From the NCBI RefSeq assembly GCF_007004665.1, contig NZ_ML660054.1:62001-126000 (forward strand): DNA of 64,000 nucleotides, written 5' to 3'. Under the pieces are notes generated by a model. It saw only the letters and a program-made list of their open reading frames with translations, was not told the origin of the DNA and searched no databases. Positions 3,715 to 30,014 of this stretch are shown here, piece after piece. This stretch comes from Denitrobaculum tricleocarpae (GTDB lineage Bacteria; Pseudomonadota; Alphaproteobacteria; Kiloniellales; Kiloniellaceae). How positions within the stretch are numbered: the first letter of the stretch is position 1; every line of letters begins with the position of its first letter. Position numbers and translations under genes: made by a program.

Positions 3715-5652
3715 ATGTATCAAAATTCGCTTTCAATGCGCATCGCTTCGAAAATCATCCTCCTGCTGATCGGCGGAATGGCCGTCCTGCTCTTTGTTCA
3801 AACATATCTCTCTCAGTCATTTTTCTCGGGTGAGTTGGCCCGGTTTTACGAGAAAGAGACGCTTCTTTTGGCGTCGCAAATGGACGGCGGCATCAAGTGG
3901 AAAAAGGCCGATAAGATCAACAGTGTTTATGAGAAACAGACTCTGAAGGAAGAGAACTCAAACCTCGCAAACGCTTTGATTACGGATGCGGAAAAGACCC
4001 CGTTGTCATCCTTTACATCGGAAATATACGAGTCCACCGATCTCGCGGCGGTTTTAGAGGACTTCGAGGTTCAGGAGAGCGCAACACCCTTTACGACCAA
4101 AATCATCGATCATCATGTCATCACCGTGACGGCGATCATCGACGCGAAATCGAAAAATACGATCGGTTACGTGGCCATGGCCTGGAGCAAACAGTCCGCA
4201 TTGGATTCGATGGCCGCCGTCCGGAACTCCTCGTTGGCTGCGTCCGCGGTAATAATTTTGATTATCGCCGCGTCTCTCATCTTCCTTCTCAAATCCATGG
4301 CGATCAAGCCGATCAGAAACATCAAGGACGTCATGTCACGGCTGGCCGACGGCCACCTCAAGACCGAGGTTCCCTACGTCAAAAACCAGGATGAGATCGG
4401 TCAGATGGCCCAGGCTCTGCTGATTTTCAAAGAGAACGCCGGCGAGATCGTCCGAATGAAGGAACAGGAAGACGCGCGCAACGCACAACTCGACGCCGAG
4501 AAGAAGTCCGATCTGCTGCGCATCGCCGACGTATTGGACAAGGAAGTCAAATCCGCCGTCAGTGACACCAACACACAAGCTGACAGCATGAAAAACAGCA
4601 GCGCCGAAATGCGCGACGTGATCGCTCAACTCGGTGATCAGACCTCAACCGTCGGCAAGGGCGCAGAACGGGCGTCCGGATCGATCCAGGCCGTGGCCTC
4701 CGCGACCGAAGAGCTCTCCGCCTCGATCAGTGAGATCACGCGGCAGGTCGAACAGGCGTCCAGCATCGCGCAGGACGCCTCGAAGGAAGCGGCACGGACC
4801 GACCAAACCGTCGGCGGGCTGTCTGAAGCGGCTCAGAAGATCGGCGATGTGATCAACATGATCCAGGACATTGCCAAGCAAACCAATCTGCTGGCTCTGA
4901 ATGCCACCATTGAGGCGGCCCGCGCGGGTGAAATGGGCAAGGGTTTTGCCGTTGTCGCGTCCGAGGTCAAGCACCTGGCCAGCCAGACCGCCAAGGCAAC
5001 GGAAGAGATCAGCACTCAGATCGGCGCGATACGGGAAGAAACCGACGGCGCGGTCGGGGCGATCCGCTCGATCAGCGGAACCATCGAAAAAATCAACGAA
5101 ATCTCCGAGAGCATTGCGGGCGCCGTGCAGCAGCAAAGCAACGCGACTCAGGAGATCAGTGCCAGCGTCCAGGATACGGTTCAGCATATGTCGGAAGTAT
5201 CCAGCCAGGTCGCCGATGTGATCGGCGGCACGGAACAGGTCAATCAGCACTCCAACACCGTTATGGAGAATGCGGAGCAAACCTCGACCAATATCGGCCG
5301 CTTGGAAACGCGCATGGGTACCGTGCTGAGCCAACTGCGGGAATCGGCCAATGTGGACCGGCGCGCGGACGATCGTAAGGACGGATCCTGGAGCGCGCAG
5401 GTAATCGACGGCGAACGGGCTCTGGATTGCGTGATCGCCAACGTCTCACTGGGCGGTGTTCTTCTCAAGAACTGCACAGGACTTCAGGAAGGTATCGTGG
5501 TGACGCTCGCCATCGACGGCTTTGGCGAAAACCTCTCGGGGCATGTCGTTTCCGTGTCGCCACAGGGGGCTCATCTGAAGTTTATTCTGGAAGAAGACCA
5601 GCGGGAGAAGGTCCGCAGCTTCTTCGAACTTTCGAAGAAACAGGCGGCTTAA
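3715..5652 (+). CDS. Methyl-accepting chemotaxis protein with C-terminal PilZ domain
   Basis: A 645-residue chemoreceptor. Order: TM helix 1 (about 10-32), a periplasmic sensor of some 135 residues, TM helix 2 (about 171-195), HAMP (about 196-250), and the cytoplasmic signalling hairpin with the CheA/CheW contact tip [20 protein letters not shown] (about residues 385-404). After the coiled coil comes a PilZ domain (from about 548): RADDR fits RxxxR and NVSLGG fits (D/N)xSxxG, so both c-di-GMP motifs are intact. The same architecture is known in Azospirillum Tlp1, where c-di-GMP tunes chemotaxis. Start ATG 3715 follows AGGA at a good distance. The periplasmic ligand is unknown. Confidence 0.92.
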
Positions 5653-5855
5653 ATCACCTGCAGCTCTCAAGTCTGCCGCGCACTGCTTCATCCCTGATAT
5701 CTCCGGCGCTCAGACGCCGCTCAGCGCTAGGCGCTCTCACGAGACTCACATCGGGCCCTCTTCCCTGCGTGATGGCTCGACGCTGCTTGCTGCGTCTCAT
5801 ACAGCTTCACTGAACCTATTAGACAAAGGGACAAGAGGTTTTCGCCTGCCAATGG

Positions 5856-5885
5856 TTGCGCCGCGCTCTGCGAACAAAGTATACC
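5856..5885 (+). promoter_or_regulatory. Candidate sigma70-type promoter for frmA-fghA
   Basis: TTGCGC and TATACC separated by 18 bp, about 40 bp before the frmA start. The fit is fair, not strong. Confidence 0.3.
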
Positions 5886-5923
5886 GTTAACAACGATAAT
5901 CGCTTTGTACGGAGAGAAGTCGC

Positions 5924-7033
5924 ATGGACGTGCGCGCCGCAGTTGCCCTTCAGGCAGGAAAACCACTTTCGATCGAGACAGTGCAGCTCGATGGCCCGAG
6001 GCAGGGCGAAGTCCTTGTCGAGATGAAGGCCACGGGCCTCTGTCACACTGACGCCTTTACGCTGTCGGGCGCCGACCCTGAGGGTATCTTCCCCGCCATC
6101 CTTGGCCATGAAGGCGCTGGCGTCGTGGTTGACGTCGGACCAGGGGTCAGTTCTTTGAAAAAAGGCGACCACGTCATCCCTCTCTACACACCGGAATGCC
6201 GCGAGTGTGAGTACTGCCTGAACCCGAAGACCAACCTCTGTCAGGCCATCCGCGAAACCCAGGGCAAGGGCCTGATGCCTGACGGGACCAGCCGCTTCTC
6301 GCTGAACGGTGATCCACTGTTCCATTACATGGGTTGCTCCACTTTTGCGAACTATTCGGTTCTGCCCGAAATCGCACTTGCGAAGATCCGTGAAGACGCC
6401 CCCTTCGACAAGGTCTGCTATATCGGTTGCGGTGTCACGACGGGCGTGGGCGCAGTCGTGAACACGGCAAAGGTCGAGCCTGGCTCAAACGTGGTCGTTT
6501 TCGGCTTAGGCGGTATCGGCCTCAATGTTTTGCAGGGCGCGCGCATGGTCGGTGCCGACAAGATCATCGGCGTCGATCTCAACAACGACCGCAAGGCGAT
6601 CGGCGAGAAGTTCGGTATGACCCACTTCGTCAATCCGAACGAGGTCGAGGGCGATCTGGTGCCCTATCTGGTTGATCTGACGGGAGGCGGCGCGGACTAC
6701 AGCTTCGAATGCATCGGCAACGTCAACGTCATGCGTCAGGCGCTGGAGTGCTGTCACAAAGGCTGGGGCGAGTCCGTCATCATCGGCGTCGCGGGTGCCG
6801 GACAGGAAATCGCCACCCGGCCCTTCCAGCTGGTCACCGGCCGGTCCTGGCGGGGCACGGCATTCGGCGGCGCCCGGGGACGAACCGACGTGCCGCGGAT
6901 TGTCGACTGGTACATGGACGGCAAGATCAACATCGACGATCTCATCACCCACACCATGCCCCTGGAAGACATCAACAAGGGCTTTGATCTGATGCATGGG
7001 GGCGAGTCCATCCGCGGTGTCGTGGTCTATTAA
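5924..7033 (+). CDS. frmA: S-(hydroxymethyl)glutathione dehydrogenase / class III alcohol dehydrogenase
   Basis: A 369-residue zinc alcohol dehydrogenase of class III, which oxidises S-hydroxymethylglutathione (from formaldehyde plus glutathione) to S-formylglutathione with NAD+. Seen: catalytic-zinc cysteine in [15 protein letters not shown] with the zinc His/Glu, the four-cysteine structural-zinc lobe ([15 protein letters not shown]), a second catalytic Cys in YIGCGVTTG, and the NAD fold GLGGIGLNV. Length is standard. ATG 5924 is preceded by GGAGAGA. The next gene completes the pathway, so the pair forms a formaldehyde detoxification operon; it may also serve methyl-group catabolism of betaine-like compounds. 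Confidence 0.96.
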
Positions 7034-8415: not shown

Positions 8416-8722
8416 TGTTACCTCTGAGAAACCGAATCGGGTGGCACTGGAATCGTGTAACCGCTTCGCGTGGAACTTCGCAAATCTACGCAGGCGACTG
8501 GGGCATGACTTGGGACAAAAATCGGGCAAAAAGATGTCATTTGTTGCAGTTTCGCCTCTGCCAGCAGTCTTTCTTACCCTCCGGTGGCCAACCCGCATCC
8601 TCAGCCGTCCCAACCGCGGCGCTGCGTTCCGGAGTTGAACATGACTTTCTGAACGCTTGTATTCTCGGCAGAACTCGTCATATTGCACCGCAATATAGCT
8701 CTTGATCCGATGGAGAAGGCAC
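8416..8722. other. 307-bp divergent intergenic region (bactofilin / ppa)
   Basis: Must carry promoters in both directions. I see no RNA gene, repeat or convincing additional ORF. Confidence 0.5.
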
Positions 8723-9259
8723 GTGGATCTTAAAAAAATCGCGGTCGGCGAGAACCCGCCGTGGGACGTCAACGTCGTCATTGAGGTGCCGCTCGGCGGC
8801 GAACCGGTCAAATACGAGCTCGATAAGGAATCGGGCGCGATGTTCGTGGACCGCTTCCTGCACACCTCGATGAGCTATCCCTGCAACTACGGTTTCGTGC
8901 CGCATACGCTGTCCGACGACGGCGATCCCATAGATGTACTGGTGGCCGGCACCCACGCAGTCGTTCCTGGCGCCATCGTACGGGCCCGCCCAATCGGTGT
9001 GCTGATGATGGAAGATGAAGCCGGACACGACGAAAAAATCCTCTCGGTTCCCGTCGATGCGCTTCATCCCTTCTACTCGAACGTCACGTCATACCGCTCT
9101 CTGCCCGAGATCCTGCGCGAGCAGATTGCGCATTTCTTCGAGCATTACAAAGACCTTGAGCACGGTAAGTGGGTAAAGGTGACGGGCTGGGGCGAAGCTG
9201 AAGAGGCAAGCCGCATGATCGAAAGCGCGATGAAACGGGCCAAAGAACAAGAGGGCTGA
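8723..9259 (+). CDS. ppa: Inorganic pyrophosphatase
   Basis: A 178-residue family I soluble pyrophosphatase that hydrolyses pyrophosphate to phosphate and so drives biosynthetic polymerisations. Active-site landmarks: KYELDKESG, the signature [10 protein letters not shown] with its metal-binding aspartates, and [10 protein letters not shown], then SYRSLPEI and FFEHYKDLE. The start is a GTG at 8723 with GGAGAAGG just upstream; this matches the family N-terminus better than the first in-frame codon at 8702. Followed by a hairpin terminator, so apparently monocistronic. Confidence 0.96.
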
Positions 9260-9301
9260 GATGAGAAGCCAGGAACAGACCGGTAAGACCATTTGATGAA
9301 A

Positions 9302-9330
9302 AACCCGGAGAGTGAACAACTCTCCGGGTT
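9302..9330 (+). terminator. Hairpin terminator after ppa
   Basis: Perfect 11-bp stem AACCCGGAGAG / CTCTCCGGGTT with a 7-nt loop, 42 bp after the ppa stop. The following sequence has only short T runs. Confidence 0.65.
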
Positions 9331-9542
9331 AAGTTTATTCCAGGCCATTGCCGCATCGGGATAATCCCTTACCGCATTAGTATGTACCCTTGCGGACTTT
9401 ATCGTTACATTGACGGGAATGGACGCAAACACAAATACAAAAAGACAGCTGTGTCAGGTAGTTAACACATGAAGCTGTTGTATGAAGGCAAGAGGCCGGA
9501 TTGGGTGAAAACCTCTCGGTCGCTCACTTGAGGCAGACCTCT

Positions 9543-17550: not shown

Positions 17551-17811
17551 CAGCATCGGCTCCAATGCATCTAAAAATCCACCGGCACCCGTCCGGCTAG
17601 AAACCCACCCCTTACAAGATCACCCGTGACGCGCCCAACGCATCAACTCTACTCGCGCTCCTGATAAAAGTGCAGGCTTGCAACAGGCTGTCGTAAATTT
17701 AACACCTTCATTTTTTTGCATTTTTCCCGCCAAACTTGTTACACTTTCTGGACAGTTCATCGGCATCAAACAGCGCGTATCCTTTGTAACACTCATGGCC
17801 GGGGAGGTCAT

Positions 17812-18339
17812 ATGGTTGAAAGCAGCAGCGACAACCAGAAGAACAAGGCCAGTCCGCGTTACATCACCAGCCGGGCCCTTCTCGCCAACTGCCACCCAAA
17901 AATTGCCGAGATTTTTCATTATTGGAACCGGAAACGCGGCGATCGCCGCATGCCGAGCCGCAGCGAAATAGCGCCGGAAGATTTTGTATCGCACCTGCCG
18001 GGGATTCTTCTCGTTGACGTCGAGGGCCTTGATCGCAACGGCGTCGGGATCTTCAGGTACCGGGTGGTCGGTACGGAAGAAGTCGCCTTGCGTGGCTACG
18101 ATCCGACCGGAAGAGACGTGCGGGAAGGTTTTTTCGGCCCGAGCCTCGAAGATGTCATTGAGTGTTACGACTACGTCCGGCGCGAGGGTATTTTTATATA
18201 TGACCCTCTCGAATACGAAACACCGGACGGTCGTTGGCGTGATGAATCGACAATCTTTCTACCTTTGTCCGAAGACGGCGACACCGTCAGCCAAATCATG
18301 GTCTACTCCATCAAACGGGACTCCAAGTTCACTTTTTGA
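17812..18339 (+). CDS. Single-domain PAS (PAS_5-like) protein
   Basis: A 175-residue soluble protein: a short polar N-terminus, a helix HPKIAEIFHYWNRKRGDRRMP, then a PAS-type core containing HLPGILLVDVEG, FRYRVVGTEEVALRGYDPTGRDV and DGRWRDESTIFLPLSEDGD. The pattern (trp/arg-rich helix, DI-P motif, YRLVGT, D-TGR, final R--LPLS) is the alphaproteobacterial PAS_5 family, in which no output domain is attached and function is unknown. ATG 17812 has a very strong ribosome site, GGGGAGG. Two relatives occur in this window at 28516-29106 and 29166-29648. Convergent with the universal stress gene. Confidence 0.78.
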   Translation: MVESSSDNQKNKASPRYITSRALLANCHPKIAEIFHYWNRKRGDRRMPSRSEIAPEDFVSHLPGILLVDVEGLDRNGVGIFRYRVVGTEEVALRGYDPTGRDVREGFFGPSLEDVIECYDYVRREGIFIYDPLEYETPDGRWRDESTIFLPLSEDGDTVSQIMVYSIKRDSKFTF

Positions 18340-18423
18340 CGAGGGCCGTTCTCACCCGAGCCGCAACGCCGCCTGACCTTCAACAATTGCCCGACCTCCG
18401 TGGGGCGGCCGCACGGGGATACT

Positions 18424-18876
18424 TCAGATACGGATGACATTCACGGAACAAGTCGCGTGGCGCACAATGCGCGCCGTATTCGGACCCAGCAGGAAGTCAC
18501 CGAGGCCGGGACGATGCGCGCCCATTACGATTTGATCCGCTTTGATTTCTTCAGCCACATCCAAGACCTGCTCGTAAACCGAGCCATGACGGACGATCGT
18601 TTTAACCGTCATCCCCGCCGGTGTGTGCTCTGAAACAATCTGATTGAGCTTTTCGAGGCACTCCGAAACAACCTTGGACATATCGAACTCAGCGGAACCG
18701 CCGGTCTCCCCCCTGATCGCGTACCGCCAGTCCAGACCGCTCACGATGTCCGGCACCACGGTCATGACGTAGAGGTCTGCTTCCAGGGCCTTGGTTTGTG
18801 CCACCGCCGCCTCGAAGACCTTCTTCGTCGTCTCAATGTCCGTGATGTCGATCGGTGCGAGTACAATTGCTGTCAT
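18424..18876 (-). CDS. Universal stress protein (UspA family)
   Basis: A 150-residue UspA-fold protein: N-terminal MTAIVLAPIDITD, a hinge region, and the nucleotide-binding end VMGAHRPGLGDFLLGPNTARIVRHA, which approximates G-x2-G-x9-G(P/S/T). It is the third gene of a leftward group after the BCCT carrier and the double binding protein, 71 bp downstream of the latter. Usp proteins next to osmolyte carriers can be regulatory, as TeaD is for the ectoine TRAP system TeaABC in Halomonas; a similar role here is inference. ATG 18876 has AAGGAG seven bases before it. Confidence 0.88.
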   Translation of the reverse strand: MTAIVLAPIDITDIETTKKVFEAAVAQTKALEADLYVMTVVPDIVSGLDWRYAIRGETGGSAEFDMSKVVSECLEKLNQIVSEHTPAGMTVKTIVRHGSVYEQVLDVAEEIKADQIVMGAHRPGLGDFLLGPNTARIVRHATCSVNVIRI

Positions 18877-18893
18877 GGCAGTGTCTCCTTCAC

Positions 18894-18965
18894 GTGACAG
18901 TAGTGCGGCACATAACAGTAGTGCGGCACGTAACAGTAGTACGCCACTTAACGGTAGTCCGGTCG
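18894..18965. repeat. Four-copy 18-bp tandem repeat spanning the binding-protein stop codon
   Basis: Units at 18894-18911, 18912-18929, 18930-18947 and 18948-18965 share the core (a)cagtagt-cgg-cac. Copies 1 and 2 differ mainly at the first bases, copies 3 and 4 are more diverged. Unit 4 contains the last codons and TAA stop of the binding-protein gene (minus strand); in units 1-3 the corresponding triplet is CAC, TAT and TAC. Since 18 bp is six codons, the frame stays open through the array and would end on a TGA overlapping the usp ATG. Confidence 0.9.
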
Positions 18966-20786
18966 AATATAAAGCCAGGTCAACCAGACGAACATAGCCA
19001 CCACAATAAGGCTGAGAACAGACACGTCGGCGGCTGGATTGATTGACGCGGGCGGCTCCGGCAAGACCGGCGCAAGTGCAACTGCCTGCTTCAATGTCGG
19101 ATCGATCAGCGTCGCTCCCGGCAGTGTATCATTGAGCGCGATCACCGCGGCACTTGAGATCGGCGACAAACCGGTCGCGATCGCACTGGGCCCCTGATCG
19201 CCGACAATCGACTGCGTGTCAGGTGCCGGGCCGGCCAGCACCAGTTGCTGTCCAAGTGTTTCCACAGGATTAAACTGTCCCCGGTACACGCGTCTGGAAA
19301 TCCGATTCTGCCGGATGAAGGGGAAGCGCACAAGATTGGCGCCGTCGCTCCAGCCGTCGATCGGCAGAAGCCGAAAACTGGTATCGGCGAAACTGGCGAG
19401 CAAGGCGCTGTCGCCCTCAGGCGCCGAGACAAGCGCGGCGTCAGCGCCACCACTCGTCAGGTTTGCCAGCAAGGCGGACGTGGTATCGGCCTCGCCTGGG
19501 ACCAGTTCCGCAGTGAGGGACAGCCCCGCCTTCAGGACCGTCGCAAGACGGTGAGATGCCGAACCCTCGGGACCAGTCGCAATCCGCGTGATATCCGAGA
19601 GGGCTTCCGGTCCGCCCTGCGCGGTCACCAGATGGATGAGGTTCTGTCCGATTGCCGCGACCGCCTCGTAACTTTCGTCCCGCTCCGGTGCCGGTTTGGA
19701 GACGTCAAAGAAAGCGTCCGACGCCACAAGAGCCAGACGCGCCTCTCCACGGGCCACCGACTCCAGCGGCGCGTGGCTGGGCAGGATCTGAACATCCCGT
19801 CCCTGGAATGCGTTCCTGGCGGTTCGGAGGGCTGTGTTGGCAGCGGCGCTTTCACTGATAAAAGGCGACGCAGCGATGAAAAGGGGATCGTCTGCTTCGA
19901 CCGCACCGCTGTCGATCAGGCCGAGGCGCGCCAGGGCATCCCGTGCCACCGCGCGCGGCGCCCGGCTCTCGATATCGACCTTCCGGTTTAGGTCACGCAT
20001 AAGTTGGATGTCGATCTTACCGGCCAAGGCATCGAGAGCGCCGCCCAGGCCGTTGTGCGCGGCAAGCGATGAGGCACTCGCGAGCACAGCCGCCTCGTAG
20101 ACTGGAAAGAACGCCAGATCATCCTCCAGCAGGACCAGTCCATAGTCGGCAATCTGTCCGTCACTGGTATAGACCTCGATCAGATCGACCTGTCCATCAA
20201 GCAGTTTGTCGTAAAGCTGCGCGCGCTCGCCAAGCGGGACAACATCTGTCTCTGAGAACTCGTAGCTGTAACGCTGCGACATTGGCTGAAACCCGTCGAG
20301 CGGGCGTTTCAGGAAATCGTCTTCGATCCCTATAGTGAGCGCCCGCGCCTGCCCGACCAGCTGGCTCATCGTGGTCAAGCCGAGCTCAGCCGCTCGATCC
20401 GGTCTCATGGCCAGGCCGTAGTTGTTGGCGAAGCCTATCCGCGGACGCCACGAGAGTCCGAGCGGCTCGTAGAGTTCCTTCACACGGGCCATCGCAGCAT
20501 CGCCGTCGGCAGTTGGGTTCTGTCCCAGCATGACGAGCCCGGTGCCGTTGTATTCGGGATAGGCATCGATATCGCCTTGCTTCAAAGCCGCCTGGATTGC
20601 CTGCGTGTTGGGATAGTCCACGACACCGGAAACCGGTAGCCCCTGCTCGGACGCCAGTTCGGCCAGCATGTGGGCAAGAACACGGCTTTCCCCGAAGTTC
20701 TTCGCCCCGATCTTGATCTGGCTCTCGCTGTCCTCGCAGGCAGTGAGCGTCAAGGCGAGAAATGCAATGAGTAACGATCTAAACAT
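18948..20786 (-). CDS. Double substrate-binding lipoprotein: OpuAC-like half fused to TAXI-like half, C-terminal TM helix
   Basis: A 612-residue protein. Residues 1-17 form a lipoprotein signal with lipobox LTAC. Residues about 22-290 resemble the OpuAC/ProX glycine-betaine binding domain: IGAKNFGESRVLAHMLAEL, GDIDAYPEYNGTGLVMLG, and LLDGQVDLIEVYTSDGQI. Residues about 300-545 look like a TAXI-type binding domain: ATGPEGSASHRLATVLKAGL, LTSGGADAALVSAPEGDS and FRLLPIDGW. A single helix (VLSLIVVAMFVWLTWLY) lies close to the C-terminus. The protein would thus be held at both ends to the inner membrane. It starts 17 bp after the BCCT gene with GAGGAGGGAG upstream of ATG 20786, so they are co-transcribed. 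Domain assignment of the second half is by motif only. Confidence 0.8.
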   Translation of the reverse strand: MFRSLLIAFLALTLTACEDSESQIKIGAKNFGESRVLAHMLAELASEQGLPVSGVVDYPNTQAIQAALKQGDIDAYPEYNGTGLVMLGQNPTADGDAAMARVKELYEPLGLSWRPRIGFANNYGLAMRPDRAAELGLTTMSQLVGQARALTIGIEDDFLKRPLDGFQPMSQRYSYEFSETDVVPLGERAQLYDKLLDGQVDLIEVYTSDGQIADYGLVLLEDDLAFFPVYEAAVLASASSLAAHNGLGGALDALAGKIDIQLMRDLNRKVDIESRAPRAVARDALARLGLIDSGAVEADDPLFIAASPFISESAAANTALRTARNAFQGRDVQILPSHAPLESVARGEARLALVASDAFFDVSKPAPERDESYEAVAAIGQNLIHLVTAQGGPEALSDITRIATGPEGSASHRLATVLKAGLSLTAELVPGEADTTSALLANLTSGGADAALVSAPEGDSALLASFADTSFRLLPIDGWSDGANLVRFPFIRQNRISRRVYRGQFNPVETLGQQLVLAGPAPDTQSIVGDQGPSAIATGLSPISSAAVIALNDTLPGATLIDPTLKQAVALAPVLPEPPASINPAADVSVLSLIVVAMFVWLTWLYIRPDYR

Positions 20787-20803
20787 TTTGCTCCCTCCTC
20801 TGC

Positions 20804-22354
20804 TCAACTGGCGCCACTGCTGCCCACGGCCTCGCCACGGGCTTCGATCGGTTTCAGTGGTGCGCGTTCTTTTTTGATTTCCCTCATGAAGCCGACGATC
20901 TGCAGCAGCACGATCACCGTGAAGGGAATCGCGCCGGTGATCGCCATTGCTTTTGCAACAGCCACAGATTCCGAGAGGATCGTCCCAGTCGTAATCGCGG
21001 CAATCAGTGTGCCCCAGACCATCTTTTGCATGACCGGCGGATTGAGGTTTCCGTCGGTCGTCATCATGGACAGAACAAAGGTCCCCGAATCTGCGGAGGT
21101 CACCAGGAAGATAAACATCAGGGTGACGGCCAGGATGTTCAGGACATGTCCACCGGGAAAATATCCCAGAAAGGCAAAGAGCGCCTTGGTCGCATCCTCA
21201 AATATGATCTCCTGAAGACCGCCACCGGCGAACATTTCAATGTAAAACCCCGCACCGCCAAAGACCGCAAACCACAGCATGGAAAAAAGCGTCGGTACCA
21301 GGATCACGCCAACGCAGAATTCACGGATGGTACGCCCCCGGCTGATGCGGGCGACAAAGATCCCGATGAAGGGGCCCCAGGCGATCCACCAGATCAGATA
21401 GGTCAGGGTCCAGCCCGCGCTCCATCCGCCAAGATCCTCAAAGGGGAAGAGCTTAAACGACATGGTAATCATGCCGGCGAAATAGTTGCCGATGGAATCG
21501 ATGAAAGTCTCGAGCAGGAAGCGCGTCGGACCGGCAAAAAGCACCAGCAACATGATGAGGATGGCAATCACCATATTGACGTTCGAAAGGATCTTGATCC
21601 CTTTGTCCACGCCGGTCGTGGCGGACAGCATGTAGCAGACGAACAGGATCCCCAGAATGATGATGGCCGTCGTCACGCTCTCATCCGTGCCAAAGGCATA
21701 GAAGGACCCGGAGCGCACGGCCAGGGTCCCCATGGCCAAAGATCCGGCCAGACCGAACACAACAGATAGCACGGCGAGCGTGTCCGCCACGTTGCCCATG
21801 GCATCACCCGTGCGTCCGTTAAACAAAGCCTTGATCGGTGTCGAGATCATCGAGGGCTGACCCCGCCGGAAGGTGAAGTAAGCGATCACCAGCGCACAGA
21901 TGGCGTAGATTGCCCAGGCATGGAAGCCCCAGTGCAAATTCGTGATCACAAGCGCCTGCCGGGCCGCAGCAGCCGTGCCGCCTTCCATGCCGGGCGGACT
22001 GATGTAATGATACATCGGCTCGGCCGGCCCCCAGAGCAAAAGGCCGGAGCCCATGCCACCGGCGAAGAGCATCGCAATCCAGGACACCGTCGAGAACTCC
22101 GGCTCCTCGTCGTCTTTGCCAAGTCTGATGTGACCGTAGGGACCGAACGCCATGTAAATTGAAAGGAAGAGAAAGCTGGAACAGATGAAAAGCCAGGCCC
22201 AACTGACACCAGTCAGCGAATAATTGGTGAACCCAAGCATCGTTCCGGTCATTCCATCCGGACTGACGATCCCCCAGACTCCGATCCCTGCACAACATGC
22301 CATCGACACGGTGAACACCGTATTGATGGTCAACTTGGACGCGTTCGACGACAT
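20804..22354 (-). CDS. BCCT-family betaine/carnitine/choline transporter
   Basis: A 516-residue secondary carrier with about twelve membrane helices. Family landmarks: HWGFHAWAIYAICALVIAYF with the aromatic/tryptophan segment of TM4-5, FRRGQPSMIS, WWIAWGPFIGIFVARISRGRTIREF, and VTSADSGTFVLSMMTT. BCCT carriers import betaine, choline, carnitine or related quaternary amines with Na+ or H+. No long C-terminal osmosensory extension is present (the tail after the last helix is about 30 residues). ATG 22354 is preceded by GGGGGAGAG; an upstream in-frame start at 22372 lacks support. First gene of the carrier/binding-protein/Usp group and divergent from the hydantoinase gene. Confidence 0.94.
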   Translation of the reverse strand: MSSNASKLTINTVFTVSMACCAGIGVWGIVSPDGMTGTMLGFTNYSLTGVSWAWLFICSSFLFLSIYMAFGPYGHIRLGKDDEEPEFSTVSWIAMLFAGGMGSGLLLWGPAEPMYHYISPPGMEGGTAAAARQALVITNLHWGFHAWAIYAICALVIAYFTFRRGQPSMISTPIKALFNGRTGDAMGNVADTLAVLSVVFGLAGSLAMGTLAVRSGSFYAFGTDESVTTAIIILGILFVCYMLSATTGVDKGIKILSNVNMVIAILIMLLVLFAGPTRFLLETFIDSIGNYFAGMITMSFKLFPFEDLGGWSAGWTLTYLIWWIAWGPFIGIFVARISRGRTIREFCVGVILVPTLFSMLWFAVFGGAGFYIEMFAGGGLQEIIFEDATKALFAFLGYFPGGHVLNILAVTLMFIFLVTSADSGTFVLSMMTTDGNLNPPVMQKMVWGTLIAAITTGTILSESVAVAKAMAITGAIPFTVIVLLQIVGFMREIKKERAPLKPIEARGEAVGSSGAS

Positions 22355-22664
22355 CTGTCTCTCCCCCGGCACAAGACTGTTTTTTTATGTGAGCGGTAGA
22401 AAGAGTAACCTTTTTTTCTTTTTTCCGCTAATGCGAGCCGCACCTCTTTTGTCGTAATTATCCCAAAGTGCAATCCTACGGGCTGTTCTGTCGACGCCCC
22501 GGTTTTACAGGTCAGCCCCAAAAACCTGCGGCGCGGAAATCAAAAATCTTCACGACAGCAGCCTTATTCCCCAAGACATCCGCTTGCCGTTGGTGCTACA
22601 GGATTTGTGGGGACGACAAGAGGTAAAACCCACCTTCAGGGATCGAGTTTAGGAATGGACTTTC
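22355..22664. other. 310-bp divergent intergenic region (BCCT / hydantoinase)
   Basis: Contains T-rich runs at 22378-22386 and 22410-22426 and presumably promoters for both genes. No gene, repeat or clear operator seen. Confidence 0.5.
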
Positions 22665-24698
22665 ATGGCACAACTGCTTGGTATCGACACCGGCGGAACC
22701 TATACAGACGCGGTCCTTTTCAGCCGTGACAGCGGTGTGCTTGCCTCTGCCAAGGCCCTGACGACCAAGCACGATCTTTCAATCTGTATCGGTGAAGCCA
22801 TCGGCACCGTGCTTGATGGTCTCGCGGATCAGACCGCTATCGAGCTTGTTTCAATCTCGACCACCCTGGCAACGAACGCAGTGGTCGAGGGGCAAGGCAG
22901 TCCGGTTTGCCTGCTTTTGATCGGTCACGATGAAAAAGCCCTGGACCGGGCGGGCCTGGGCTCGGCCCTGGGTCAGGATCCGGTCGTCTTTCTGACCGGC
23001 GGTCACGATGCTTCGGGCGATGAAGCCGCGCCTCTGGATCTCGCAGCGGCACGGGAAGCTATCGAGCGCCATGCCCCCAATGTTTCGGCCTTCGCGGTCG
23101 CGGGTCTCTTCGCCGTTCGGAACCCGGCCCACGAAATTGAGGTTTGTGCATTGGTGCAGGAACTCACAGGACGGCCGGTCACAGCTGCGCACCAACTTGC
23201 CTCCAGCCTCGACGCGCCACGCCGCGCGTTGACCGCCGTTCTCAACGCCCGTCTGATTCCCCAGTTGCAGGACCTCATTCTCTCCGTCCGGAAACTGCTT
23301 GCCGAACGCCAGATCGGCGCGCCGCTCATGATCGTGAAGGGCGACGGATCCCTGATATCCGCAGAGGTCGCCCTGAAACGGCCGATTGAGACGGTTCTGT
23401 CGGGACCGGCCGCCAGCACGATCGGCGCGACCTATCTGGCCGGTCAATCCAATATGCTTGTGGTTGATATAGGCGGGACGACTTCGGATATCGCGGTTCT
23501 GCGCGACGGCCGCCCCCTGCTCAGTGAAGACGGGGCAACGATTGGCGGTCGGAAAACAATGGTGCAGGCCATCGCTGTAGAGACATTTGGATTAGGGGGA
23601 GACAGCGAGATCCGAATGGAGCGTGGCTCCGGTCTCCAATTGGGGCCAAGGCGCAACCTGCCGATTTCTCTCCTGGCGCACGAATTTCCGTCGGTGCTTG
23701 AGAGTCTCGAAGAGCAGCTCGCCGCCGAACGTCTGCCCGCCTATGCCGGCCTCTTTGCCATGCGGCAGCGCGCGCTGGACACCAGCGAGGCAGCCATGAC
23801 GTCGTCGGAACGCAGTCTGTGGCGGAGCTTGCAGGACGGTCCGGTTGCAGTTGCCGAACTCCTTTCCGGAGCCGCCATGGAAAGGCCCTTCAAACGCTTG
23901 CTCGACCGGGGTCTTGCCATTGTCTCGGGCTTTACCCCCAGCGACGCGTCGCACGTTCTGAACAGGCATGAAGGCTGGTCTCAAGCGGCGGCAGAGACAG
24001 CAGCGCGACTTTTCTCCCGGCGGGCTGATCTGCTCGGCATCACTTTACCGGAAGAACCAGCGCAACTGGCAGCAACCGTCCATGAGTCCATGGTGACGGC
24101 ATCGGCCAGGCTTTTGGTCATGGCCAGCCTCACCGAGAGCTTGCCTGCCGCTCTGGGCGACAAGCCGGACGAGCTTGGGCGCTACTTTCTTGATCAAGCC
24201 GTCAAGCGCCCTTGCGACTCCGGGTCACCGATACACGAGAGCCCGATCGATTTTACGCTCCGGCTGAAGCTGCCTGTTGTGGCGATCGGAGCGCCTGCGG
24301 CAAACTACTATCCTGATATTGCCGGGCGCCTCAACGCAGAGATCACAGTTCCCGGACATGCCGAAGTCTGCAATGCGATCGGCGCCGTGGTCAGCAGCGT
24401 CTCCCAGAGCGTGACGGCAACGGTGACGACACCTGGTGAAGGGCGTTATCGCGTACACCTGGTCACGACGATGCGCGAGTTTGCCTCATTGGAGCATGCC
24501 ATTGCCTTCGCGGACGAGGAATCGAAACGTCTTGCCCGTGAAGCAGCCGTTAGCGCAGGCGCCCGCGATCCGGAAATTCATTCAAACCGAAACGACACAC
24601 TGGTCGAGGATATCGGCGGCCGGCGTGTCTTCGTGGAAAGCAAGATTGACGCCGTGGCAATTGGACGCCCCGGATTGGGTCAGGCCGCGAAGAGTTAA
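22665..24698 (+). CDS. Hydantoinase/oxoprolinase family protein (HyuA-like ATPase), no HyuB partner
   Basis: A 677-residue protein of the ATP-dependent N-methylhydantoinase/5-oxoprolinase/acetone-carboxylase beta family. N-terminal phosphate loop GIDTGGTYTDAVLF, STTLATNAVVEG, the second actin-fold loop MLVVDIGGTTSDIAVL and the following ETFGLGGDSEI are all present. The usual partner HyuB is absent on either side, so this is one of the stand-alone HyuA-type proteins whose substrate is unknown. The neighbouring BCCT carrier imports methylated amines, which makes an N-methyl lactam or hydantoin substrate conceivable but unproven. Start ATG 22665; no strong Shine-Dalgarno (AGGA is 13 bases away). 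Convergent with the PilZ gene. Confidence 0.86.
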   Translation: MAQLLGIDTGGTYTDAVLFSRDSGVLASAKALTTKHDLSICIGEAIGTVLDGLADQTAIELVSISTTLATNAVVEGQGSPVCLLLIGHDEKALDRAGLGSALGQDPVVFLTGGHDASGDEAAPLDLAAAREAIERHAPNVSAFAVAGLFAVRNPAHEIEVCALVQELTGRPVTAAHQLASSLDAPRRALTAVLNARLIPQLQDLILSVRKLLAERQIGAPLMIVKGDGSLISAEVALKRPIETVLSGPAASTIGATYLAGQSNMLVVDIGGTTSDIAVLRDGRPLLSEDGATIGGRKTMVQAIAVETFGLGGDSEIRMERGSGLQLGPRRNLPISLLAHEFPSVLESLEEQLAAERLPAYAGLFAMRQRALDTSEAAMTSSERSLWRSLQDGPVAVAELLSGAAMERPFKRLLDRGLAIVSGFTPSDASHVLNRHEGWSQAAAETAARLFSRRADLLGITLPEEPAQLAATVHESMVTASARLLVMASLTESLPAALGDKPDELGRYFLDQAVKRPCDSGSPIHESPIDFTLRLKLPVVAIGAPAANYYPDIAGRLNAEITVPGHAEVCNAIGAVVSSVSQSVTATVTTPGEGRYRVHLVTTMREFASLEHAIAFADEESKRLAREAAVSAGARDPEIHSNRNDTLVEDIGGRRVFVESKIDAVAIGRPGLGQAAKS

Positions 24699-28011: not shown

Positions 28012-28515
28012 CGTTCCCTCCTCCCGCTCTGCAATTGCCGGAAGATAACATCTTTCAACACCTTGCGCGGGCATGAATTGGACAAAACCAAAATTCATCG
28101 GCCACTTTCGCCAGAACACCCGATCGACCCTCGGCACGAAAGTAACCACGCATACAAAGCCGATACTTTGACAGGTGGGAAGATCGCATTTGACTTGTCC
28201 GAGGATGCGGTCCCTAGGCTCCCCTCAGCGGGAGCCGACGGCGGAGCGGCCGCGGGTTTTTGGCTCAAGCGGGCGTAACGCACCGCCAACCGAGTGAAAG
28301 TCAACCTCGCTCCCAGGTCATTGAAGCACCGGAGGTCCCTGACGTACGTGGCACGTCAAATTTGAGCTGAATGCCATACGATAGCCGCATTCTCGTCGTG
28401 ACATATCGGCAACCTTGATATAATCTTCCTGCATTAATTTTGATCCCTTTGGTTGTATTTCTTTGCGGCACTCATAGTCTGGTTACCCTCTGTTTACATT
28501 CGGAGACCGCGTAAA
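28012..28515. other. 504-bp intergenic region with inverted repeats
   Basis: No convincing gene. Contains a perfect hairpin GGCTCCC-CTCAGC-GGGAGCC (28217-28236), a GC-rich GCGGCCGC palindrome and then TTTTT near 28256-28260. This may be an orphan terminator or a small RNA end. The rest is AT-rich near the PAS gene's promoter. Confidence 0.45.
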
Positions 28516-29106
28516 GTGTTGGATCTGATTTCGGTTCCTGAGGAGATCTCTAGCGAAGTTCACACTTCGCTCAGCAGCTTTTCTGACCAGATTATCGATG
28601 ATCGCCACAAAGCGCTTCTCGACTACTGGACCGGCAAACGCGCGCAGCGGCTTATGCCGGACAGATCTGATGTTGATCCGATCGATATCCCGAAGCTGTT
28701 GCCGGATATTGGGCTCCTTGATGTGATTGACGGAGGGCGGCGCTTCTATTTCCGGGTGGTGGGAAGCAACATCAACCGCTCGTTCGGACACGACTACACA
28801 GGACACTATCTCGACGACGTGGCCCCCATCGGATACAGCCAGTTCATTACTCTGCTGTATAGAAAGGTCGTTCAAACGCGGTGCCCGGTCTACTCGCTGG
28901 GCAAGTGCCGCTACCGGGATTCATCGGTCCGGAGTATCCAGCGGCTTCTCCTGCCGCTGACGAAAGGTCGTGAAGATGTCGACCAGATCTTCTACTCCAC
29001 CTGTCTCGGCGGCATTCAAGGGGATTTTCAGGATGCTTCCCAGACGGTAAATGACATCATTACCAACGACGGTCAGGTCCACATCCTGGGCGCTTCAGCG
29101 CGTTAA
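28516..29106 (+). CDS. Single-domain PAS (PAS_5-like) protein
   Basis: A 196-residue protein of the same family as 17812-18339: helix HKALLDYWTGKRAQRLMPDRSDVDP, then DIPKLLPDIGLLDVIDGG, FYFRVVGSNINRSFGHDYTGHYLDDV and RSIQRLLLPLTKG. In this family the PAS core is the whole protein and no kinase, cyclase or DNA-binding domain is attached. The start is probably GTG 28516 with GGAG eleven bases upstream; the frame extends to a TTG at 28453, whose added residues are hydrophobic and doubtful. It converges on a related gene 59 bp away. Confidence 0.75.
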   Translation: MLDLISVPEEISSEVHTSLSSFSDQIIDDRHKALLDYWTGKRAQRLMPDRSDVDPIDIPKLLPDIGLLDVIDGGRRFYFRVVGSNINRSFGHDYTGHYLDDVAPIGYSQFITLLYRKVVQTRCPVYSLGKCRYRDSSVRSIQRLLLPLTKGREDVDQIFYSTCLGGIQGDFQDASQTVNDIITNDGQVHILGASAR

Positions 29107-29165: not shown

Positions 29166-29648
29166 TCAGACGCCTCCAAATCCCCTCAGTGCCTGCAGCG
29201 GCGTTAGCGGCTCGACAACGGCCCCACCGAATATCATATCAACAGTCTTGCCGTCGCTGGAAAGCGGCAGGGCGAGGCGTTCGAACCAGATAAATTCGCC
29301 GCTTTGCTTTCTGAATTCGCGTGAAATAACAGAAGGTTGGAGTGTCGCAGCCAATTCATCATAAGTGCTGATGACCCAGCTTTTCATGTCGCCCAGGTCG
29401 ATTTCATCGACATAGCGGCCCGTCGTTTCTTCGCCATACTGTTTGTTGATTGCTGTCCCGACCAGACAGTACTTGTATCGGCGCGGGTTTTCTTCCACCT
29501 CGATCATCGCACAGTAGGGCAGTATCTTACCCGTTAATTCGACCGGCGGATCGATATCGGTACGAGAGGGAACCACACCGTCCCGGCATTTCGACTGCCA
29601 GTAGCGATAGATCTCTCTCAGTGGTTCAGTGCGAATTTGCTCAAGCAT
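29166..29648 (-). CDS. Single-domain PAS (PAS_5-like) protein
   Basis: A 160-residue relative of the convergent upstream PAS gene: REIYRYWQSKCRDGVVPSRTDIDPPVELTGKILPYCAMIEVE, YKYCLVGTAINKQYGEETTGRYVDEI and FIWFERLALPLSSDGK match its helices and PAS strands. The two sit tail to tail, 59 bp apart. The start is uncertain: ATG 29648 gives the family's usual length; an in-frame TTG at 29687 would add 13 polar residues. Function is unknown; a small-molecule or redox sensor acting on partner proteins is plausible but unproven. Confidence 0.72.
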   Translation of the reverse strand: MLEQIRTEPLREIYRYWQSKCRDGVVPSRTDIDPPVELTGKILPYCAMIEVEENPRRYKYCLVGTAINKQYGEETTGRYVDEIDLGDMKSWVISTYDELAATLQPSVISREFRKQSGEFIWFERLALPLSSDGKTVDMIFGGAVVEPLTPLQALRGFGGV

Positions 29649-30014
29649 AGATCTCGTATCGCTCCCCCGGTCCGGGCCAACGGCCAAAAGCTCGAACTCG
29701 CCTATAATTACGTCAAATCTGCTACAGAAAACAACCCATTCGCTGTGCTATTCGGCACTGTTTCAAGGATTTTTTTAAACAATCCTCAGATCTCAACTCT
29801 TTAAGCAAGATTTAACAGGCAGGCCCAACTATTAAAATCATACGCAGTCAAATAAATATTTCATCAATGCAATGAAACCCAAGGCTTTGTTCAAGGAATT
29901 CAGGCATCAGTCGCCGTTTTATGCCCAAACGCGTCAACGAGGACACAACTTTGGCACAACACCCAAATAGTTCGATTGGTAGCGTATTTCCGCAGATCAC
30001 GATGGGAGTGAAAA
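29649..30014. other. 366-bp AT-rich intergenic region
   Basis: Markedly AT-rich at 29740-29900. It includes the promoter area of the PAS gene and of the small ORF at 30015. I see no RNA gene or repeat. Confidence 0.45.

Follow-up and report, generated by a model that had tools for sequence, protein, structure and literature searches.

The window, by which we mean the whole 64,000-nucleotide stretch of Denitrobaculum tricleocarpae DNA analysed here, contains three consecutive reverse-strand genes encoding a BCCT family carrier, a lipoprotein in which two types of substrate-binding domain are fused, and a universal stress protein (Usp). This arrangement had been proposed in a preliminary description of the DNA and is confirmed by the gene coordinates and by profile matches (Pfam E values of 1.7e-160 for BCCT, 1.3e-39 for OpuAC and 1.7e-21 for Usp). 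The features, in plain terms, are:

20804..22354, reverse strand: BCCT family carrier of 516 aa, assigned by a family profile match and by alignment with BetP
18948..20786, reverse strand: two-domain substrate-binding lipoprotein of 612 aa, starting 17 bp past the BCCT stop
20736..20786, reverse strand: lipoprotein signal peptide, with a lipobox ending LTAC (Cys17)
19902..20729, reverse strand: OpuAC/ProX-type choline-betaine binding domain, residues 20-295, with aromatics Y79, Y123, Y206 and Y230
19059..19895, reverse strand: TAXI-fold substrate-binding domain, residues 298-576, without the known glutamate-pocket residues
18966..19031, reverse strand: predicted transmembrane helix at the C-terminus, residues 586-607, with a short tail containing arginine after it
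18424..18876, reverse strand: universal stress protein of 150 aa, UspF-like
18897..18962, no strand assigned: 18-bp tandem repeat in 3.7 copies, in the stretch separating the lipoprotein stop from the Usp start

A scan of positions 18200-22700 found no sigma-70 promoters and seven terminator-like sites, compared to 4.0 expected, and PADLOC gave no match on this DNA. Three single-domain small PAS_5 proteins are encoded near the operon (17716-18339 and 28453-29106 on the forward strand, 29166-29687 on the reverse), and a hydantoinase/oxoprolinase-type gene lies divergently at 22665-24698 (forward strand), its ORF cluster being shared by the window and two near relatives only.

Among named relatives of the lipoprotein, the closest are those of an uncultured Kiloniellaceae (97%) and of Pelagibius sp. 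Alg239-R121 (84%). Its N-terminal half belongs to the OpuAC family (PF04069) by profile and by fold. Alignment with OpuBC revealed that it retains the positions matching the OpuBC tyrosines, i.e. Y79, Y123, Y206 and Y230, which we take to form a four-aromatic quaternary-ammonium cage, and the window protein carries all four residues of this predicted site. Conservation was followed in alignments of 34 rows; L036, a copy 97% identical to that of the window, was dropped from them, as were L040 and L071 because the contig start truncates them, L052 because the start of its lipoprotein could not be read, and L070 because it is no fusion. Among these copies Y79 is found in 34, Y123 in 32, a tyrosine or phenylalanine at position 206 in 29, and Y230 in 32; the Thioalkalivibrio-type copies L066 and L067 lack aromatics at three of the four cage positions (123, 206 and 230), and L021, L060 and L069 have no aromatic at 206.

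The second half had been described as TAXI-like from motifs, with a contrary profile result named as its refutation; both profile search and fold comparison uphold the assignment, and the possibility that it is not a TAXI domain was rejected on the same evidence. TIGR02122 scores the window protein at 26.6 to 28.2 bits, which does not reach the curated cut-off of 84.35 bits, and matches 29 of the 34 C-terminal halves at E 0.01 or better, while 253 of 297 residues align by fold, covering most of the two-lobed structure. In the accessible part of PMC11574862, the glutamate-binding residues of VcGluP are given as Y45, S75, Q93, E125 and Y200. In all 34 C-terminal halves, other residues stand at the positions equivalent to Q93, E125 and Y200, and the first-loop stretch, which lies outside the profile alignment, has no tyrosine in any of the 34. 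A serine occupies the S75 position in 14 of 34, and serine is also frequent at the two positions mapped to the G156-D157 loop (29/34 and 28/34). F359, W479, Q514, P520 and P533 are invariant, and the strongest conservation in this half follows the pattern YxGQ...ETLxxQxVLAGP...GxQGP at residues 501-533 (window 19188-19286). Mean Kimura-type similarity over 27 loci is 0.35 for the C-terminal half, 0.49 for the N-terminal half and 0.64 for the BCCT, so the C-terminal half changes fastest. Judged by its sequence, the TAXI half probably serves for docking, or for binding of something other than glutamate. The suggestion of a two-lobed receptor stands in that both lobes are present, but since the known glutamate-pocket residues are missing from the TAXI half throughout the 34 copies, it is less likely that both pockets bind a ligand.

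The tethering of the lipoprotein at both ends, also suggested beforehand, is borne out at the level of prediction, with both a lipobox and a C-terminal helix; the tail past the helix runs from a few to about 30 residues, and no signalling domain was found in the lipoprotein. An initial AlphaFold2 model built on 13 sequences (pLDDT 72.7), for which the matches listed by Foldseek (50) were of OpuAC type only, was superseded by a 34-sequence model of the lipoprotein alone, with a pTM of 0.61, in which the domain arrangement is not to be trusted. A viral library search returned nothing useful.

The clearest indication that the lipoprotein and the carrier belong together comes from other genomes. 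A collection scan with the 13-sequence alignment returned 36 loci, among them L070, where the OpuAC part lies on a protein that by eye runs into an ABC permease and has no TAXI half; with L040 and L071 cut at the contig start, 33 public fusion loci with upstream DNA are left. In all 33, a same-strand BCCT gene immediately precedes the fusion (of these BCCTs, three are cut by a contig edge and one is split in two frames), and a Usp gene lies downstream at 28 of them, none being found at the other five. The window and L012 hold all three genes; next to the most distant copy, L021, the BCCT is at 45% and a Usp was not found. Three plasmid records were matched and two of them examined: on the Martelella sp. 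NC18 plasmid (L119) the BCCT and lipoprotein genes overlap by 4 bp and no Usp was found, and on the Paracoccus aminovorans plasmid (L118) the BCCT (4377-5908) is in two frames, with the adjoining lipoprotein and Usp intact. With script-chosen starts, the BCCT and lipoprotein genes are -52 to +27 bp apart at all but one of 34 loci, the outlier being L069 (343), where the BCCT is split. The preliminary description had held that a fusion away from any BCCT gene would speak against the idea, and none was found at any locus with upstream DNA, the window, L012, L021, L118 and L119 included; the gene for the binding protein is thus strictly coupled to that of a secondary carrier. At L038, a Minwuiaceae MAG, a second, distant BCCT gene (4739-6265, 34% identity) lies directly upstream of the linked one.

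Going by the record titles, the hosts of the fusion belong to the Kiloniellales, Rhodobacterales, Rhizobiales and Rhodospirillales, and to the Gammaproteobacteria. A broad spread was nevertheless rejected and the fusion is rare in the class, since among 385 evenly drawn class genomes (E limit 1e-50, at most three candidates scored per genome) only the window's own has it in full, 11 others giving OpuAC-only matches. The same 385 genomes contain no BCCT above 42% identity other than the window's (E limit 1e-110). Among 58 genomes including the window's, the 12 with a BCCT of at least 62% identity are the same 12 that have a full-length fusion beside a BCCT; G049 has a fusion truncated by the contig start, and a BCCT of this kind was not found there, while G036 contains the distant BCCT-fusion pair. 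Pairwise distances of the binding protein correlate with those of the BCCT at 0.964 and with those of the Usp at 0.889 over the 27 loci where all three genes were long enough, a correlation that partly reflects shared descent.

Whether the surroundings alone could account for this pairing was judged from the neighbourhoods and from control loci, in counts that exclude order-wide family searches. At 34 loci, the widely shared neighbours among ORFs of at least 150 aa are the BCCT (34), the lipoprotein (34) and the Usp (27), together with one antisense frame of the BCCT. The next ORF cluster occurs at only nine loci, the same nine as scattered ABC ATPase-like stretches, so the trio is kept together while most of its surroundings vary, and chance linkage of BCCT and fusion was rejected on the contrast between the 33/33 pairing and these changing neighbours. 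An ATPase-like stretch at L042 (2775-3494), on the strand opposite to the BCCT and about 2.9 kb upstream of it, matches an osmolyte-type ATPase at E 1e-54. Searching with a TAXI-type TRAP membrane protein gave a single weak match (L049, more than 2 kb upstream of the BCCT) among the 34 loci; no TRAP membrane genes adjoin the lipoprotein gene, whose neighbour is the BCCT. Conversely, none of 20 OpuAC loci without a TAXI half has a BCCT in the available flanking DNA, several of them being fused by eye to ABC permeases, and none of 24 BCCT genes outside the linked set has an OpuAC- or TAXI-like neighbour within about 1.5 kb, in a scan where two of the six OpuAC queries from the window's genome (122 and 125) were wrong frames; a BCCT beside a lone OpuAC or TAXI protein was accordingly discarded as a general pattern for these 24. 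Two of these unlinked BCCTs do have binding-protein genes of other types nearby, SBP_bac_3 at L099 (368-1207, reverse strand) and SBP_bac_8 at L105 (280-1404, forward strand), so some such neighbours may be due to chance, or these may be further carriers linked to binding proteins.

The carrier itself is an unambiguous family member, the window protein matching PF02028 end to end (1-485 of 485). BCCT carriers are a LeuT-fold family, with the structure of BetP well known, and are not elevator carriers; those such as BetP function alone, and no binding protein is known for BetP, BetT or CaiT. In alignment with BetP the window BCCT retains the aromatic segments HWxxHxWAIY and WWIxW, which in BetP line the substrate site. 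Linked BCCTs (n=31) have 19-39 residues beyond the last helix, and the osmosensing tail of BetP is longer. Compared to other BCCTs they show no enlarged periplasmic loop and no clear periplasmic docking patch, and only five of 28 link-specific residues fall in periplasmic loops, as drawn by hand. The comparison, and a tree containing 31 linked BCCTs and 23 others, omit L036, L040, L052, L057, L067, L069 and L071 (near-copy, cut or split) from the linked loci and L111, L004 and L005 from the others. In this tree, where several long branches were flagged, 30 of the 31 linked BCCTs fall into a single clade (98/99) that contains no unlinked ones and in which orders and classes are mixed, with Mesorhizobium among Kiloniellales rows and Thioalkalivibrio, on a long branch, with Rhodobacterales; this mixing of lineages suggests that the module spread horizontally as a unit. 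The most distant linked BCCT, L021, lies outside the clade and joins the base of nine unlinked BCCTs (100/99), a placement which suggests either an older association that was lost there or a second gain.

Several known systems share part of this design. Like BetP, BetT and CaiT, the carrier has the full BCCT family match and the aromatic box, and it differs from them in the adjoining binding-protein gene. The OpuAC half is of the same binding-protein type as those of the OpuB, OpuC and OsmF ABC systems, with matching aromatic positions, but here a TAXI-fold domain and a membrane helix follow it in the same protein, and no OpuB-type permease accompanies it at 34 loci. TeaA is a DctP-type protein, and the membrane part of the TeaABC TRAP system is DctQM-type rather than BCCT. 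As described in the accessible part of PMC2964678, TeaABC with the Usp TeaD is similar in combining a binding protein, a secondary carrier and a Usp for an osmolyte. This parallel, drawn in the preliminary description, has a real precedent behind it, though the Usp is not essential to the module because none was found at five of the 33 loci, nor at L021 and L119.

The nearest precedent is TAXI-GltS, in which an enlarged TAXI lipoprotein adjoins a non-TRAP carrier. As far as the accessible part of PMC12344293 describes it, TAXI-GltS of Bordetella pertussis consists of BP0403 and BP0402, an association proposed from gene context, and has in common with our module a lipid-anchored multi-domain protein with a TAXI domain on the C-terminal side, encoded right after a secondary carrier and without TRAP membrane genes. 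In the same text its partner, GltS, is a glutamate carrier whose model is of the elevator type, the domain on the N-terminal side resembles PilO and is not a second binding protein, BP0403 binds glutamate, and a C-terminal membrane helix goes unmentioned. The authors (PMC12344293, 2025, in the part accessible) also suggested that an elevator mechanism may be necessary for secondary transport dependent on substrate-binding proteins (SBPs), of which the examples named there are thought to be elevator carriers, and wanted further classes as a test. An elevator-type membrane component is not what is found here, the carrier being homologous to BetP. A BCCT-linked receptor would allow the question why binding proteins serve some secondary carriers and not others to be addressed directly on a rocking-bundle carrier; because a BCCT is a LeuT-fold carrier, the module is a test case for the elevator rule. 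Titles and abstract openings in a body of literature with few subscription papers gave no earlier description of a BCCT-linked fused binding protein, which does not prove its absence from print.

We lean towards the view that the three genes form a self-contained uptake module in which the lipoprotein assists the BCCT with a quaternary-ammonium osmolyte. The lipoprotein would be held over the inner membrane by its N-terminal lipid and C-terminal helix, its OpuAC half catching the solute (glycine betaine, choline or similar) in the aromatic cage and passing it to the adjoining BCCT. The TAXI half, no longer a glutamate receptor, might act mainly as a spacer and docking element or bind a second ligand, and the Usp may be a cytoplasmic tuner of carrier activity, in line with the proposal made for TeaD and TeaABC. 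Because of the linkage, the binding protein likely has a role specific to the BCCT. The module is real and conserved, and stands a reasonable chance of being the first binding-protein-linked LeuT-fold carrier; the stronger claim, that it is the first binding-protein-dependent LeuT-fold (BCCT) transporter, with a doubly tethered fusion of ABC-type and TRAP-type receptors delivering osmolytes in breach of the suggested elevator-only rule, we put forward tentatively, as something we hold to be quite possible. The BCCT may not need a receptor because it has kept its own aromatic substrate site, and this complete site favours a helper or regulator role as much as strict dependence. Other points that tell against delivery are the non-elevator nature of BCCTs, the absence of a clear docking patch or larger periplasmic loop on the linked carriers, the cage aromatics missing from L066, L067, L021, L060 and L069, and the position of L021 outside the clade.

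The main rival to delivery is that the lipoprotein is a ligand-sensing regulator of the BCCT, binding external betaine and switching or limiting the carrier by contact, with the Usp as its cytoplasmic counterpart. The carrier's complete site and the predicted two-ended tether are compatible with this, as are the BCCT tails, short enough beside that of BetP to make another regulator conceivable, and the accessible part of PMC2964678 provides in TeaD a precedent for activity control. Set against these points, the lipoprotein has no recognisable signalling domain and at most about 30 residues past its helix, and such solute-binding domains are best known as uptake receptors, and we regard a sensing role as rather unlikely. 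A dual-input receptor, in which the two halves bind different solutes for one carrier, e.g. betaine and an organic acid, would suit the extent of the TAXI-like fold (253 of 297 aligned), the loop serines (29/34 and 28/34) and the five invariant residues; the replacement of the Q93, E125 and Y200 equivalents and absence of the first-loop tyrosine in 34/34, and the rapid change of this half (0.35 compared to 0.49 and 0.64), make it improbable in our judgement.

Two further explanations were considered. The lipoprotein could serve an ABC permease elsewhere in the genome, the BCCT being merely co-regulated, and the conserved gene order could indeed be read as co-regulation; six further strong OpuAC proteins are encoded in the window's genome, which makes it probable that ABC osmolyte systems are present, and a crude motif scan found Walker A or LSGGQ signs next to five of these proteins. 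This seems very unlikely to us, given that the lipoprotein stays with the BCCT in different orders and in two classes while the remaining neighbours vary, that an OpuB-type permease was found at none of the 34 loci and that searching the window's genome with the window protein gave no second OsmF-type SBP at E 1e-3. Equally hard to credit is an ordinary stress-gene operon whose products make no direct contact: all three families are general stress or osmolyte genes and the Usp was not found at five of 33 loci, but BCCT and lipoprotein are unseparated at every locus with upstream DNA, and the main BCCT clade has linked members only.

Returning to the preferred reading of an uptake module, the pairing of the carrier with a tethered two-part binding protein points to a novel route by which cells could take up protective solutes when these are scarce. 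The receptor occurs in several orders of Alphaproteobacteria and in some Gammaproteobacteria and, if the reading is true, would account for an ability of these bacteria to collect betaines at low concentration without spending ATP. The proteins of the L118 and L119 plasmids, annotated as glycine betaine ABC transporter substrate-binding proteins, would then be misnamed. On the latter, Martelella, plasmid a mechanosensitive channel gene (8506-9501) lies downstream of the module.
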